Shown: positions 41,521-54,465 of the stretch, in pieces
Layout: each line of letters begins with the position of its first letter
How positions within the stretch are numbered: the first letter of the stretch is position 1
Origin: Haloarcula sp. DT43
Lineage (GTDB): Archaea; Halobacteriota; Halobacteria; Halobacteriales; Haloarculaceae
Assembly: GCF_037078405.1 (NCBI RefSeq)
Contig: NZ_JAYMGZ010000002.1
Coordinates: forward strand, 620,001 to 684,000
Reading direction: 5' to 3'
DNA: 64,000 nucleotides
Notes under the pieces: generated by a model
What the model saw: the letters and a program-made list of their open reading frames with translations, nothing else
What the model was told of the DNA's origin: nothing
The model's database searches: none
Position numbers and translations under genes: made by a program

Positions 41521-41663
41521 TCAGTCGTGGGGGAAACACCGATAGGCGCGCTTCGCTCGTCTATCGAGCGTCAGACACTCCAGTCAGTCGTGGGGGAAAC
41601 ACCGATAGGCGCGCTTCGCTCGTCTATCGAGCGTCAGACACTCCAGTCAGTCGTGGCGGAAAC
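41521..41663. repeat. 63-bp tandem repeat with stem-loops, overlapping the 3' end of purNH
   Basis: Two identical 63-bp units (41521-41583, 41584-41646) plus 17 nt of a third (41647-41663, one mismatch) that is the real end of the purNH coding region including its stop. Each unit contains a 9-bp stem, CGATAGGCG and CGTCTATCG with one G-T pair, around the loop CGCTTCGCT (41540-41566 and 41603-41629). An alternative, mutually exclusive hairpin is CGCTCG/CGAGCG. The units sit downstream of purNH on its own strand, in the 186-nt gap before the FNT gene. Confidence 0.88.
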
Positions 41664-50867: not shown

Positions 50868-51215
50868 TGGGAAAACAACGGCGACGGCGGCTAACAAGGG
50901 TTCCGCTTCCAGCCCTGGTGCTCGCTCCCGCCGGCCGCAGCGAGAGCCGACGACCGTGAAACCCGGTGTCAGAACCCGGGTAGGTCCGCGCCGGCGGGGC
51001 GGCTGCACGAAACCGAATCGCCACTATCCGAGTGACTGCCCGTCCAGGTCCGAACTCGTAAACCAGTTCGAAAAGTCGGTTAACGACCATATTCAACGCC
51101 TCCACCTGGCCGTCGGCACGCTCGGCCGCGGCTCACCTCTCCATTTTCGTGCCCTGTCACCGCTTGCATCTCCTATCAGCATAGACTTATTAGTCATCCT
51201 ACACGAATGTCTCGT
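50868..51215. other. Divergent intergenic region between lysA and the bactofilin-like gene
   Basis: About 350 nt with no supported gene. It holds two perfect 6-bp stem-loops: CTCGCT/AGCGAG with a 12-nt loop (50921-50944) and ACCCGG/CCGGGT with a 9-nt loop (50961-50981). The second half (51050-51180) is less GC-rich. The only clear promoter element is CTTATTA at 51186-51192 for the plus-strand gene. Confidence 0.5.
51186..51192 (+). promoter_or_regulatory. TATA box deciding the start of the bactofilin-like gene
   Basis: CTTATTA centred 27 nt before the ATG at 51216 but only 18 nt before the in-frame ATG at 51207, so the downstream ATG is preferred. Confidence 0.55.
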
Positions 51216-52331
51216 ATGCCTTCCAGGCTCTCCAGCGGCGGCCGCCGGGTCGCCGCGTTCGCGCTCGCATCGCTCGTCCTGCTGTCGGCCGCGACTGGCG
51301 TCGCCGCCGCGCAGTCGTATCAGGGGGCTTCAGACACCATCGTCGTCGGCGTCGACGAGACGTACGACAGCGTCGAGGGGTTCGCCGGGACTATCGTCGT
51401 CCGCGGGACGGTGACCGGAGACGTCTCCGCGGCGGCGGGAACCATCCACGTCACGGAGACCGGCGAGGTCGGCGGGAACGTCGAGGCCGCGGCCGGAACC
51501 GTCCGCATCGACGGCACCGTCGGCGGCGACGTGAGCGCCGCCGGCGGCACGGTCGAAATCGGCGAGTCAGCCCGGATAGCCGGGAACCTCGACGCGGGCG
51601 CGGGCTTTCTCGCGATTCACGGGTCCATCGACGGGACCGTCCGCGCCGGTGCAGAGGAAATCGTTCTCGGCCCGACGGCGTCGGTCGGCGGGGACGTCCG
51701 CTACGACGCCGAGACGTTCACCCGTGACCCCGATGCCACCGTCGCCGGAAGCGTCGTCCGGGACGAGACCATCGGTGACAGCGCCGGTCCGGACTTCGGC
51801 GAGTTCGCGCTCCCGTCGTGGCTCGGCGCGGTCTACGGCCTGTTCGTGAACCTCCTGCTCGGCGCGGTTCTGCTGGCAGCCTTCCCGTCGTTCTCGGCGC
51901 GCGTCGCCGAGCGTGTCGGCGAGAGCCCGGCGAAGTCCGGCGGCGTCGGGGCGCTGACGCTCGTCGCCGTACCCGTCGTGCTCGTCGTGCTCCTGCTGAC
52001 TATCGTCGGCATCCCGCTCTCGCTGGTCGGCGCGGCCGCGTTCGGCGTCGCCGCGTGGGTCGCCGTCGTCTACGGCCAGTTCGCCGTCGGGTCGTGGGCG
52101 CTCTCGCTCGCCGACCGCGACAACCGCTGGCTCGCGCTCGTCGTCGGCCTCGTCGGGTTCGCGGTCCTCGGCGCGGTTCCGATTCTGGGCGGCCTGCTCG
52201 AACTGATAGCGTTCCTGCTCGGCCTCGGCGCGCTGGCGCTCACGCTCCGGGAGTCCTACCGGAGTCGCAGGCGGGCACCGGGCGGCCGCCAGACGACGCT
52301 CGGCGAGACCGGCGACACGCCGACGGCGTGA
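51216..52331 (+). CDS. Exported bactofilin-like (polymer-forming) domain fused to a membrane domain
   Basis: 371 aa. A Sec signal peptide (RRVAAFALASLVLLSAATGVAAA) precedes a repetitive beta-helix of bactofilin type (about 35-180) with recurring G-T-V-x-G-D-V turns: VVRGTVTGDVSAAAGTIHV, VEAAAGTVRIDGTVGGDVSAAGGTVEI, GSIDGTVRAGAEEIVLG. From about residue 200 there are four membrane segments (WLGAVYGLFVNLLLGAVLLAAF, GALTLVAVPVVLVVLLLTIVGIPL, AAAFGVAAWVAVVYGQF, LLELIAFLLGLGALAL). Bacterial bactofilins are cytosolic polymers; here the helix lies outside the cell. It interrupts the lysine genes. A surface scaffold role is inference. Confidence 0.8.
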   Translation: MPSRLSSGGRRVAAFALASLVLLSAATGVAAAQSYQGASDTIVVGVDETYDSVEGFAGTIVVRGTVTGDVSAAAGTIHVTETGEVGGNVEAAAGTVRIDGTVGGDVSAAGGTVEIGESARIAGNLDAGAGFLAIHGSIDGTVRAGAEEIVLGPTASVGGDVRYDAETFTRDPDATVAGSVVRDETIGDSAGPDFGEFALPSWLGAVYGLFVNLLLGAVLLAAFPSFSARVAERVGESPAKSGGVGALTLVAVPVVLVVLLLTIVGIPLSLVGAAAFGVAAWVAVVYGQFAVGSWALSLADRDNRWLALVVGLVGFAVLGAVPILGGLLELIAFLLGLGALALTLRESYRSRRRAPGGRQTTLGETGDTPTA

Positions 52332-52361
52332 GGGCGACGCCGCGATACGGGTCTCACTCAA

Positions 52362-52578
52362 GAGAGCCGCCCCGTTCGGTCGTGCCGCTCGCTGTCCACG
52401 GTTCGCTCCGCTCACCGTTCGTCTAACGAGAGCCGCTCCCTGCAGTCGCGCCGCTCGCTATTCACGGCTTCGCCGTTCGTGCCGTCGGGGTTGCTCCCGC
52501 TGGTCGCAACCTCGCTACTCGCGGGTCACTTCGTTCCCCGCTCGCCTATCGAGGTTCTTCGCTTCGCTCAGAACCTCG
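52362..52578. repeat. Array of five stem-loops between the bactofilin-like gene and dapD
   Basis: Five perfect stems with 11-12 nt pyrimidine-rich loops: ACGGT/ACCGT (52398-52418), ACGGC/GCCGT (52464-52485), GGTTGC/GCAACC (52489-52511), GCGGG/CCCGC (52521-52541) and GAGGTTCT/AGAACCTC (52551-52577). Loops include TCGCTCCGCTC and TCGCTTCGCTC. Units recur with about 64-66 bp period: GAGAGCCGC at 52362 and 52428, AACCTCGCTACTC at 52508-52520 and 52572-52584, the latter running into the dapD stop codon. The stems differ in sequence but are internally complementary. Confidence 0.8.
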
Positions 52579-53409
52579 CTACTCCCGAAGCGCGTCCTCT
52601 CGCTCCGTCGCTTCCAGCGTCTCCTCCTCCACGTCGGTCGCCACCACAGCGGGCTTGTACGCCCCGCCGGGGATGAGGTCGTTCTCGCCGACGGAGGAGT
52701 CGACGAAGCGCTGGAAGGCGCGCCGCTCCGGCGGCAGTTCGCCGTACAGCACCTCGTCCTCGACGAGGTCGTAGACTGGAATCCGCGGCGTCAGGAGCGT
52801 GTTCTCGCCGACGATAGAGTCCTCGCCGACGACGAAGCCGCTGGTGACCCGACAGCCAGCGCCCAGCGACACACCGTCCTCGACGATGACCGGCGCGTTC
52901 TCGACCGGTTCGAGGACGCCGCCGATGAGCGTGTTCGCGCCGAGCTTGACGTTCTCGCCGATTTGGGCACAGGAGCCGACGGTGTCACAGGAGTCGACGA
53001 GCGTGCCGTCGCCGACGTAGGCCCCGATGTTGACGAAGGAGGGCGACATCATGATGCAGTCCTCGCCGAGGTACGCGCCCCGGCGGATGGCGGTCCCGTC
53101 CGGCGTGTTGCGGGTCCCGCGCTCGCCGAGGTCCGCGGTCTCGCGCAGCGGCAGTACGTCGTGGTAGTCGACGCCGCCGTACTCGCGGGCGACGGTCTCG
53201 CGCAGGCCGAAGTTCAGCAGAATGCCCTGTTTAACCCAGGCGTTTGCTTCCCACTCGCCGCCGGACTTCTCCGCGGCGCGGACCTCGCCGGCTTCCAGCG
53301 CCGCGAGGAACTCGTCGAGAACGGCGAGGTGGTCGTCGGTCGCGTCGGTCGCAGACAGGCCGTCCTGTTTCCGTTGCCAGAGGTCGTCGATGTCGGCTTC
53401 GAGGCTCAT
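52579..53409 (-). CDS. dapD: 2,3,4,5-Tetrahydropyridine-2,6-dicarboxylate N-succinyltransferase
   Basis: 276 aa. The N-terminal helical part (IDDLWQRKQDGLSATDATDDHLAVLDEFLAALEAG) is followed by a left-handed hexapeptide beta-helix (RRGAYLGEDCIMMSPSFVNIGAYVGDGTLVDSCDTVGSCAQIGENVKLGANTLIGG and onward). DapD transfers succinyl from succinyl-CoA to tetrahydrodipicolinate, so this organism uses the succinylase DAP branch, matching dapE. GTAAGTAAGCC about 27 nt before the ATG supports the start. The last stem-loop of the array begins 2 nt after the stop and may end the transcript. Confidence 0.93.
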   Translation of the reverse strand: MSLEADIDDLWQRKQDGLSATDATDDHLAVLDEFLAALEAGEVRAAEKSGGEWEANAWVKQGILLNFGLRETVAREYGGVDYHDVLPLRETADLGERGTRNTPDGTAIRRGAYLGEDCIMMSPSFVNIGAYVGDGTLVDSCDTVGSCAQIGENVKLGANTLIGGVLEPVENAPVIVEDGVSLGAGCRVTSGFVVGEDSIVGENTLLTPRIPVYDLVEDEVLYGELPPERRAFQRFVDSSVGENDLIPGGAYKPAVVATDVEEETLEATEREDALRE

Positions 53410-53484
53410 ACCACCCGGTTGCAACGCCGGGGGCTTACTTACCGGGGTTTCGGAACGGCTGTGCTACCGTGACTCACTCCCGTC

Positions 53485-53616
53485 TCAGTCCGCCCCGCGG
53501 CCCGGGATGTACCCGCACTCCTGGCACATACTGATTCGGGGGGCCGTCGCTTCGAATTCACTGGAACATCGTGGGCAGTCGGTCGCTGGCAGTTGTACGT
53601 GGTGGTTCGTAGCCAT
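53485..53616 (-). CDS. 43-aa zinc-ribbon protein inside the dap cluster
   Basis: Short gene encoding MATNHHVQLPATDCPRCSSE...SMCQECGYIPGRGAD. Cys14, Cys17, Cys31 and Cys34 make two CxxC knuckles. The minus strand reads CTTATATGT about 27 nt upstream of the ATG, a strong TATA box, so this is probably a real leaderless gene with its own promoter between dapB and dapD. It lies on the same strand as the dap genes. Function is unknown. Confidence 0.72.
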   Translation of the reverse strand: MATNHHVQLPATDCPRCSSEFEATAPRISMCQECGYIPGRGAD

Positions 53617-53715
53617 ACGCGACAATCGGCAGTTCCGACATATAAGGCTGCCCGTAATATTGAGAGAAGTGTTTGTGTGTGTATTATCACATATTAATTC
53701 CGCGGCCGCGCTCGC

Positions 53716-54465
53716 TCAGGCGTCCACGACCTCGCTGAAGTCGTACCAGCCGGCGTCGCGGCCGACGAGCCACGTCGCGGCATCGAGCGCGCCGGCGGCG
53801 AACACCCCGCGGTCCTCGGCGCGGTGGGACAGCGAGAGGACCTCGTCGTTGCCGGCCAACACGAGTTCGTGCTCGCCGCGGATGTCGCCGGCGCGGCGGG
53901 CGAACACGCCGATTTCGTCCGCCTCACGCGGAGCGTGTCCCTCCCGGCCGTACACCGGTTCCACGTCGCGCTCCGCCTGAATCACGTCGAGGATACTGTT
54001 GGCGGTCCCCGACGGCGCGTCGACTTTGCGGTTGTGGTGGGTCTCCATCAGCTCCAGGTCGTACTCTTCGAGCGTGCCGACCGCCTCGCTCACGAGGCGC
54101 TGGAGGACCTGAATCCCCTGCGAGAAGTTGGTCGCCTTCAGCAGCGGAACCTCCTCGCTGGCGTCTCGCAGGCGGGCCAGCCCGTCCTCGTCGAAGCCGG
54201 TCGTGCCGACGACCATCGGGACGCCCGCCTCGACGCAGGCGTCGGCAACGGTCAGCGCGCCCTCGGGGACGGCGAAATCGACCACGACGTCCACGTCGTA
54301 CTCACGGAGCGCCGCGGCGGCGTCGGTCGGGTCGACGACTGGGACCCCCTCCACTGCGTCCGTCCCGTTGGTGGCGAAGCCGACCACGACCTCGCTGTCG
54401 GTGGCGGCCTCGATGACGGCCCCGCCCATCTGGCCGGTGACGCCGTTGACCGCCACCCGCGTCAT
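53716..54465 (-). CDS. dapB: 4-Hydroxy-tetrahydrodipicolinate reductase
   Basis: 249 aa, normal length. NAD(P) motif VNGVTGQMGGAVIEA at the N-terminus; FAVPEGALTVADACVEAGVPMVVGTTGFDE; and the active-site signature ETHHNRKVDAPSGTA (HHxxKxDAPSGT). It reduces the DapA product to tetrahydrodipicolinate. The ATG overlaps the dapA stop by 4 nt, giving translational coupling. The C-terminus RDAGWYDFSEVVDA is intact. Confidence 0.94.
   Translation of the reverse strand: MTRVAVNGVTGQMGGAVIEAATDSEVVVGFATNGTDAVEGVPVVDPTDAAAALREYDVDVVVDFAVPEGALTVADACVEAGVPMVVGTTGFDEDGLARLRDASEEVPLLKATNFSQGIQVLQRLVSEAVGTLEEYDLELMETHHNRKVDAPSGTANSILDVIQAERDVEPVYGREGHAPREADEIGVFARRAGDIRGEHELVLAGNDEVLSLSHRAEDRGVFAAGALDAATWLVGRDAGWYDFSEVVDA

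Follow-up and report, generated by a model that had tools for sequence, protein, structure and literature searches.

The 247-nt spacer between dapD and a convergent bactofilin gene, located in a 64-kb window of haloarchaeal DNA (69% GC), carries an array of hairpins, a single member of a repeat family that is distributed across the order Halobacteriales. Covariation supports selection for structure in the stems of these hairpins. The array is best explained, at a likelihood just short of even, as structured elements in the 3' UTR of the dapD mRNA that could act in transcription termination and/or 3'-end protection, a reading drawn from sequence analysis; within it, we infer that the working molecule is RNA and that termination or protection is its function. 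Prior description of such elements in haloarchaea was not found in the open-access literature, the RepRanger survey sampled no haloarchaeon, and the family is apparently undescribed.

The dapD gene of the window has its nearest named relatives in Haloarcula, with H. japonica at 99%. The array that follows it is composed of three head-to-tail units of approximately 65 nt on the minus strand and a decayed fourth copy, and each unit combines a longer hairpin (A) with a shorter one (B). Covariance model matches on the minus strand define unit 1 (52518-52581, starting at the dapD stop codon), unit 2 (52461-52517) and unit 3 (52395-52460). The features are as follows.

52579-53409, minus strand: dapD, encoding tetrahydrodipicolinate N-succinyltransferase (Pfam THDPS_N_2, Hexapep), the gene preceding the array; an alternative start may reach up to 53424
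52579-52581, minus strand: TAG stop codon of dapD, its three bases also opening unit 1 (GAG-TAG-CGAG)
52550-52578, minus strand: hairpin A1, CGAGGTTCT-GAGCGAAGCGA-AGAACCTCG, 9 bp, GA/GA, GC-GAA-GC
52521-52541, minus strand: hairpin B1, GCGGG-GAACGAAGTGA-CCCGC, 5 bp, GA/GA, AC-GAA-GT
52486-52514, minus strand: hairpin A2 (unit 2), CGAGGTTGC-GACCAGCGGGA-GCAACCCCG, 8 of 9 bp, GA/GA, CC-AGC-GG
52464-52485, minus strand: hairpin B2, atypical, ACGGC-(12 nt)-GCCGT
52427-52457, minus strand: hairpin A3 (unit 3), imperfect, CGAGCGGCGC-GACTGCAGGGA-GCGGCTCTCG, GCA triloop
52398-52418, minus strand: hairpin B3, ACGGT-GAGCGGAGCGA-ACCGT, GA/GA, GC-GGA-GC
52358-52391, minus strand: fourth A hairpin, decayed and scoring under the model threshold, recognised from a direct repeat (52357-52401 against 52423-52467, 80% identity) and its fold
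51216-52331, plus strand: gene for a bactofilin-domain membrane protein (Pfam Bactofilin), the convergent flank

An alternative pairing of hairpin B2, ACGGC-GAA-GCCGT with a 3-nt loop, spans 52464-52476. An earlier note on this DNA had described five stems within 52362-52578, ACGGT, ACGGC, GGTTGC, GCGGG and GAGGTTCT, four with 11-nt loops and one with a 12-nt loop, in units recurring at about 64-66 bp. All five are present, at 52398-52418, 52464-52485, 52489-52511, 52521-52541 and 52550-52578, respectively, with loops of these lengths, and direct repeats lie 64 and 66 nt apart. The last stem pairs as described but is in fact 9 bp long (CGAGGTTCT/AGAACCTCG), and the inventory, right for its five stems, had overlooked the sixth, imperfect long hairpin A3. 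The end of the array had been put 2 nt from the dapD stop codon, whereas the contact is direct, with 0 nt between A1 and the stop. The view that no named family covers the array agrees with Rfam 15, which gave no match above the gathering score; its only two matches in 51000-54000 were at chance level, and neither lay over the array.

The loops had been described as keeping a TCGCTYCGCTC-like character. This conservation is real, but it is the complement of a module that folds on the sense strand of dapD. In the minus-strand sequence, four of the five loops fit GA-NN-NNN-NN-GA (GA-GC-GAA-GC-GA, GA-AC-GAA-GT-GA, GA-CC-AGC-GG-GA and GA-GC-GGA-GC-GA), so that GA faces GA, followed by two inner Watson-Crick pairs and a 3-nt tip; the antisense strand would place TC opposite TC. 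Facing GA dinucleotides are the setting for tandem sheared G.A pairs, and such pairs would form here. Hairpins of this type with arms of at least 4 bp are limited, within the 64-kb window, to these four, compared to 0 to 3 (mean 0.6) in each of ten shuffled windows. Folding of the whole spacer as RNA outperformed dinucleotide shuffles on the minus strand alone (z -3.3, against -0.5 for the plus strand), and in most intact copies of the first dapD hairpin the sense strand was predicted to be about 3 kcal/mol better than the antisense strand. A kink-turn or L7Ae site was ruled out by the lack of a bulge beside the GA pairs. Mini-hairpins with a C-GNA-G tip have extraordinary stability in DNA (PMC4686876). 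The d(GCGAAGC)-type GNA mini-hairpins of Hirao, Yoshizawa and co-workers (cited in PMC4686876) have the identical C-GNA-G tip on two base pairs and are known as a synthetic or physical motif; no dispersed genomic family with this motif as its core was found in the literature.

To compare homologous sites, the post-stop sequence of dapD was taken from 30 Haloarcula genomes, picked by position rather than by pairing. In most Haloarcula these sequences form the same hairpin with different stems, including CGAGGTTCT/AGAACCTCG, CGAGATTCT/AGAATCTCG, CGAGGAAGC/GCTTCCTCG, CGAGACGTC/GACGTCTCG and CGAGGCGCT/AGCGCCTCG. In a 20-row alignment of the dapD hairpin, 86.6% of the cells were paired compared to 66.4% after shuffling, and 56 cells had changed on both sides compared to 20.6±3.5 after shuffling and 7-10 in the sliding controls; as rows had been cut to the length of the hairpin and species clearly without an array had been excluded, these figures are unbiased for the inner stem, not for presence. 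A stronger test used a sequence pattern with unconstrained arms, AGCGAG-N5-GA-N7-GA-N5-CTCG. Among its 107 distinct matches in Haloarcula and its nearest genus, the N5 arms were paired at 447 of 535 positions (219 after shuffling, with a maximum of 248), with 52 distinct 5-nt stems and a GNA triloop in 76 matches. The difference between G-U and A-C in the stems (14 vs 7) was weak. As a control, the reversed pattern occurred 0 times in each Haloarcula genome, and chance matches to the pattern in viral contigs had two or fewer of the five pairs in 62 of 76 cases. Together with the shuffles and the control mismatch pairs given below, these controls rule out chance in GC-rich DNA. The earlier argument that variable stems with kept pairing point to selection on structure is supported by the covariation seen when the homologous site is compared between species, and a simple tandem repeat or repeat expansion, which would have identical stems everywhere, was ruled out since the stems differ at every locus and still pair.

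The same pattern of pairing could also arise in old repeats with no function, if template-switch repair (quasi-palindrome correction) or gene conversion between copies maintained the complementarity of the arms. The low number of G-U intermediates, the recurrence of certain stems in several genomes and the tandem duplications at dapD in two loci (L045 and L056) are consistent with this explanation. The facing GA/GA mismatches and the 3-nt tip, however, vary least within the element, and such correction would erase them as well. In addition, of the 99 members with three or more of the five pairs, nearly all have a pyrimidine before the first GA, and a stem of 9 bp, i.e., five variable pairs, is preferred, both of which point to selection, and the avoidance of divergent spacers and the anchoring at stop codons reported below would be left unexplained. 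This explanation is therefore considered improbable.

A covariance search across haloarchaeal genomes, of the kind that the earlier note had proposed, found matches well beyond this locus, showing that what had been seen as a local array belongs to a repeat family of the whole order. With the covariance model used (R1), for which E-values are rough and counts are lower bounds, the unit was found in all 32 Haloarcula genomes, with at least 5 to 144 matches each (E<=0.01), in at least 126 of 146 genomes of the family (E<=1e-4), and in at least 247 of 392 genomes and at least 63 of 95 genera of the Halobacteriales (E<=1e-6). In a phylum sample of 120 genomes, 12 were positive among the matches listed, all from the order, and non-halobacterial genomes had no unit among these R1 matches. 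Copy number in Haloarcula varies several-fold, from at least 133-144 matches in two genomes (G021 and G016) to at least 20-30 in many species, which points to an expansion of the family in certain lineages.

Between species, the dapD array differs by whole units at the GAG[T/C]AG|CGAG border. The second unit of one locus (L052) is nearly identical to the first unit of another (L050), and the L045 and L056 arrays contain near-exact tandem copies. This fits gain and loss of units by recombination at the repeated borders, which would leave the stop codon intact. Read-through coding after UAG was ruled out, as the unit lengths (62-66 nt) and the in-frame stops vary between species.

Context statistics were obtained from 4.0 Mb of sequence (2.06 Mb of the window genome, 0.4 Mb of Haloarcula rara, designated G016, and approximately 1.5 Mb of named haloarchaeal dapD loci), with genes called by the author's own codon-model caller. 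Hairpins with GA/GA and arms of at least 6 bp were noncoding in 62 cases and coding in 9, while control hairpins found by the same search with AG/AG, AC/AC, GT/GT, CA/CA or TG/TG were noncoding in 1 case and coding in 27 (Fisher p ~1e-15). Convergent spacers make up 16% of the noncoding bases in the window genome and G016 and contained 29 of the 56 noncoding units; divergent spacers make up 35% and contained 5. Hairpins in co-directional spacers were sense in 25 cases and antisense in 7; with dapD left out, the bias is modest (17 vs 7, p 0.03), and some units are antisense or lie within divergent spacers.

Among the top-scoring distinct arrays with a same-sense upstream gene, 23 of 26 start exactly at the stop codon, a figure that applies to the best-scoring loci and to a covariance model that itself includes the leading TAG; of the arrays in the window genome, only about one in two does so. 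With every sense TAG in the 250 nt after a gene counted as usable, 34% would be expected (p 2e-8). The anchoring stop codon is nearly always TAG, and the unit border TAG|CGAG overlaps it. Genes marked in this way include dapD, ahcY, carA and fumC and, by inspection, pyrE, the gene for RNase Z and a bacteriorhodopsin gene. At the ahcY stop codon, both the window genome and G016 carry an array, with unrelated stems. The dapD stop codon is followed by an array in 22 of 30 Haloarcula, and the 8 of 30 without one by the scan criterion indicate that the array is dispensable in some species; the dapD protein has equal length with and without it.

Taken together, the sense bias, the preference for convergent spacers, the avoidance of divergent spacers and the stop anchoring favour an mRNA 3'-end element, and between RNA and single-stranded DNA as the working molecule, orientation and position lean towards RNA. 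A cruciform or duplex binding site for a chromosome-organising protein in 3' spacers would account for the enrichment of inverted repeats in convergent spacers and for a conserved foot and tip around a variable middle of fixed length. By comparison, the tip and the GA/GA are strand-asymmetric and follow gene direction, and convergent spacers often have the array of one gene alone, which makes such a site very improbable.

The nearest known kind of element is the bacterial GTAG REP, which the haloarchaeal arrays are like in position and palindromic form and from which they depart in three tested features. GTAG REPs and REPINs with their RAYT transposases (PMC3733652, PMC2817692, PMC3116915) are likewise small, dispersed extragenic palindromes that occur in clusters, with stems of 5-13 bp and stem sub-families with complementary changes, and their TAG commonly doubles as the stop codon of an adjacent gene (PMC3733652). 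The haloarchaeal hairpins fall within the REP size range (20-40 bp with a 5-13 bp stem, dispersed and intergenic), at 29 nt and 9 bp for A and 21 nt and 5 bp for B; arrays are multi-copy in all 32 Haloarcula genomes, and in 23 of the 26 top-scoring same-sense arrays noted above the tag serves as the stop. However, an unpaired GTAG at one foot is present in more than 90% of the members of most REP families, whereas haloarchaeal first units start with TAG or [A/G]AG and internal borders read GAG[T/C]AG. REPs are associated with RAYT, a Y1 HUH transposase, while the corresponding domain (PF01797) was found in only 18 of 28 good Haloarcula genomes, the window genome having a single short copy of 150 aa. 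Furthermore, REPs mostly form head-head or tail-tail dimers, as opposed to the head-to-tail haloarchaeal units, for which opposite-facing arrays occur mainly at convergent genes. The haloarchaeal arrays also differ from REPs in the alternation of long and short hairpins, almost free stems, the GA/GA with a C-GNA-G tip, a strong sense-strand preference after the stop and the restriction to an archaeal order.

As the main alternative, the array could be viewed as a REP-like DNA element, in which a nuclease or transposase would recognise single-stranded sense hairpins and insert units 3' of [T/C]AG; stop codons would then be tolerated targets, and stems would be free since just the foot and tip are read. 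The overlap of the TAG border with the stop as in GTAG REPs (PMC3733652), the dispersed, high and variable copy number (at least 5-144 model matches per Haloarcula genome), the extreme stability of C-GNA-G tips in DNA (PMC4686876), the scarcity of G-U pairs and the rearrangement of units between species precisely at their borders all agree with this view. It is nevertheless rather unlikely, given that 10 of the 28 good Haloarcula genomes lack PF01797, among them G009, G022 and G008 with at least 85, 79 and 53 matches, that the tag is TAG, with a preceding G in only about half of the top-scoring distinct arrays, that arrays are head-to-tail, that stop TAGs are used beyond TAG availability, that the dapD protein is the same length with and without the array, and that the species comparison yielded no empty site with a clean insertion. 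A Y1 transposase as a required partner was ruled out by the several high-copy genomes without PF01797. The family could represent a counterpart of REP elements in archaea, conserving structure as sequence drifts, apparently without the transposase that is presumed to drive REPs.

If the array is an mRNA 3'-end element, each unit would give rise to two hairpins on the sense strand, with a free stem, facing GA, a 2-bp helix closed by C-G and a GNA triloop. The location of the first hairpin at the stop codon suggests that it would refold after the last ribosome leaves; the refolded hairpin could then end or pause transcription without a T-tract and/or block 3'-to-5' decay, and the dapD array would insulate the convergent neighbour gene. 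The conserved foot (CGAG/CTCG) and the GA/GNA tip may be the recognition site of a protein. Units would be gained or lost at their repeated borders with the stop codon preserved. A wider proposal, that there is an order-wide class of stop-anchored mRNA 3'-end elements consisting of hairpins with free stems and fixed GA and C-GNA-G tips, with a binding factor of its own, replacement of the T-tract as end signal and unit-by-unit turnover, is possible, though clearly less probable than the main reading. Two findings count against RNA, namely the rarity of G-U in the stems, lower than expected for RNA evolving by single steps, and the DNA-type hyperstability of the C-GNA-G tip.

T-tracts account for many, but not all, intergenic transcript ends, and termination in archaea is only partly understood. 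Among GA/GNA hairpins, 5 of 63 had a T5 within 3 nt downstream (0.18 expected) and 0 had one upstream, compared to 29 of 5037 generic hairpins with a T5 within 3 nt downstream. In H. volcanii, T5C is a tested strong intergenic terminator, and one hairpin structure alone terminated 59% of transcripts (PMC7237163). The subset of hairpins followed by T5, together with T5C and hairpin termination in H. volcanii, favours termination and/or 3'-end protection. The arrays resemble these terminators in their sense-strand 3' intergenic position, in that hairpins are located upstream of some H. volcanii 3' ends and one of them terminates (PMC7237163), and in that a minority of GA/GNA hairpins is directly followed by T5C; they differ in having no T-tract requirement, in belonging to a repeat family with a conserved tip and in abutting the stop. 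A T5 was found within 150 nt of array-bearing dapD in 0 of 22 cases, compared to 8 of 77 elsewhere, a difference that is not significant, and replacement of a T-tract at dapD was for this reason rejected; genome-wide, no T5 depletion was detected behind arrays. Clusters of hairpins without U-tracts, proposed as bacterial terminators, also place several hairpins just 3' of the stop (PMC8355165). These clusters are most common in GC-rich genomes and show no sequence conservation near the hairpins (PMC8355165), whereas the haloarchaeal units are homologous and have a common structural tip.

Single GA/GNA hairpins followed by CTTTTTC or a similar sequence were observed in the window genome (C2:187226 and C2:151726) and in G016 (L250:38, L253:2759 and L260:3040), and this joining of the GA/GNA tip to the haloarchaeal T5C terminator represents a second architecture of the family. 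At three further sites (C1:191929 in the window genome, L260:2987 and L109:19225), GA/GNA hairpins lie between a left-hand TTTTTC and a right-hand GAAAAA, forming a larger inverted repeat that may be a bidirectional terminator or MITE-like.

The protection of haloarchaeal mRNA 3' ends is only partly understood, and a stop-anchored family is a testable candidate signal for it and for transcript termination. Roughly two in three of the Halobacteriales genomes sampled carry the family, which lies at the stop codons of genes such as dapD, ahcY, carA, pyrE and fumC, and for annotation it accounts for many unassigned haloarchaeal 3' spacers.

Elsewhere in the window, a 63-bp tandem repeat (41521-41663, 2.3 copies, 98% identical) is located just behind a minus-strand gene and probably corresponds to the "purNH units" of the earlier note. 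Its hairpin, CGATAGaCGaGC-GAA-GCgCGcCTATCG, is akin to those of the array but distinct from them and shares the GC-GAA-GC tip; the repeat resembles a recent duplication. In Haloarcula rara, a GA/GNA hairpin is found between inverted copies of a tRNA T-arm-like sequence at two sites (L249:16905-16970 and L244:2518-2576) near tRNA-Gln and tRNA-Thr genes, and could perhaps be a remnant of an old tRNA-targeted integration.
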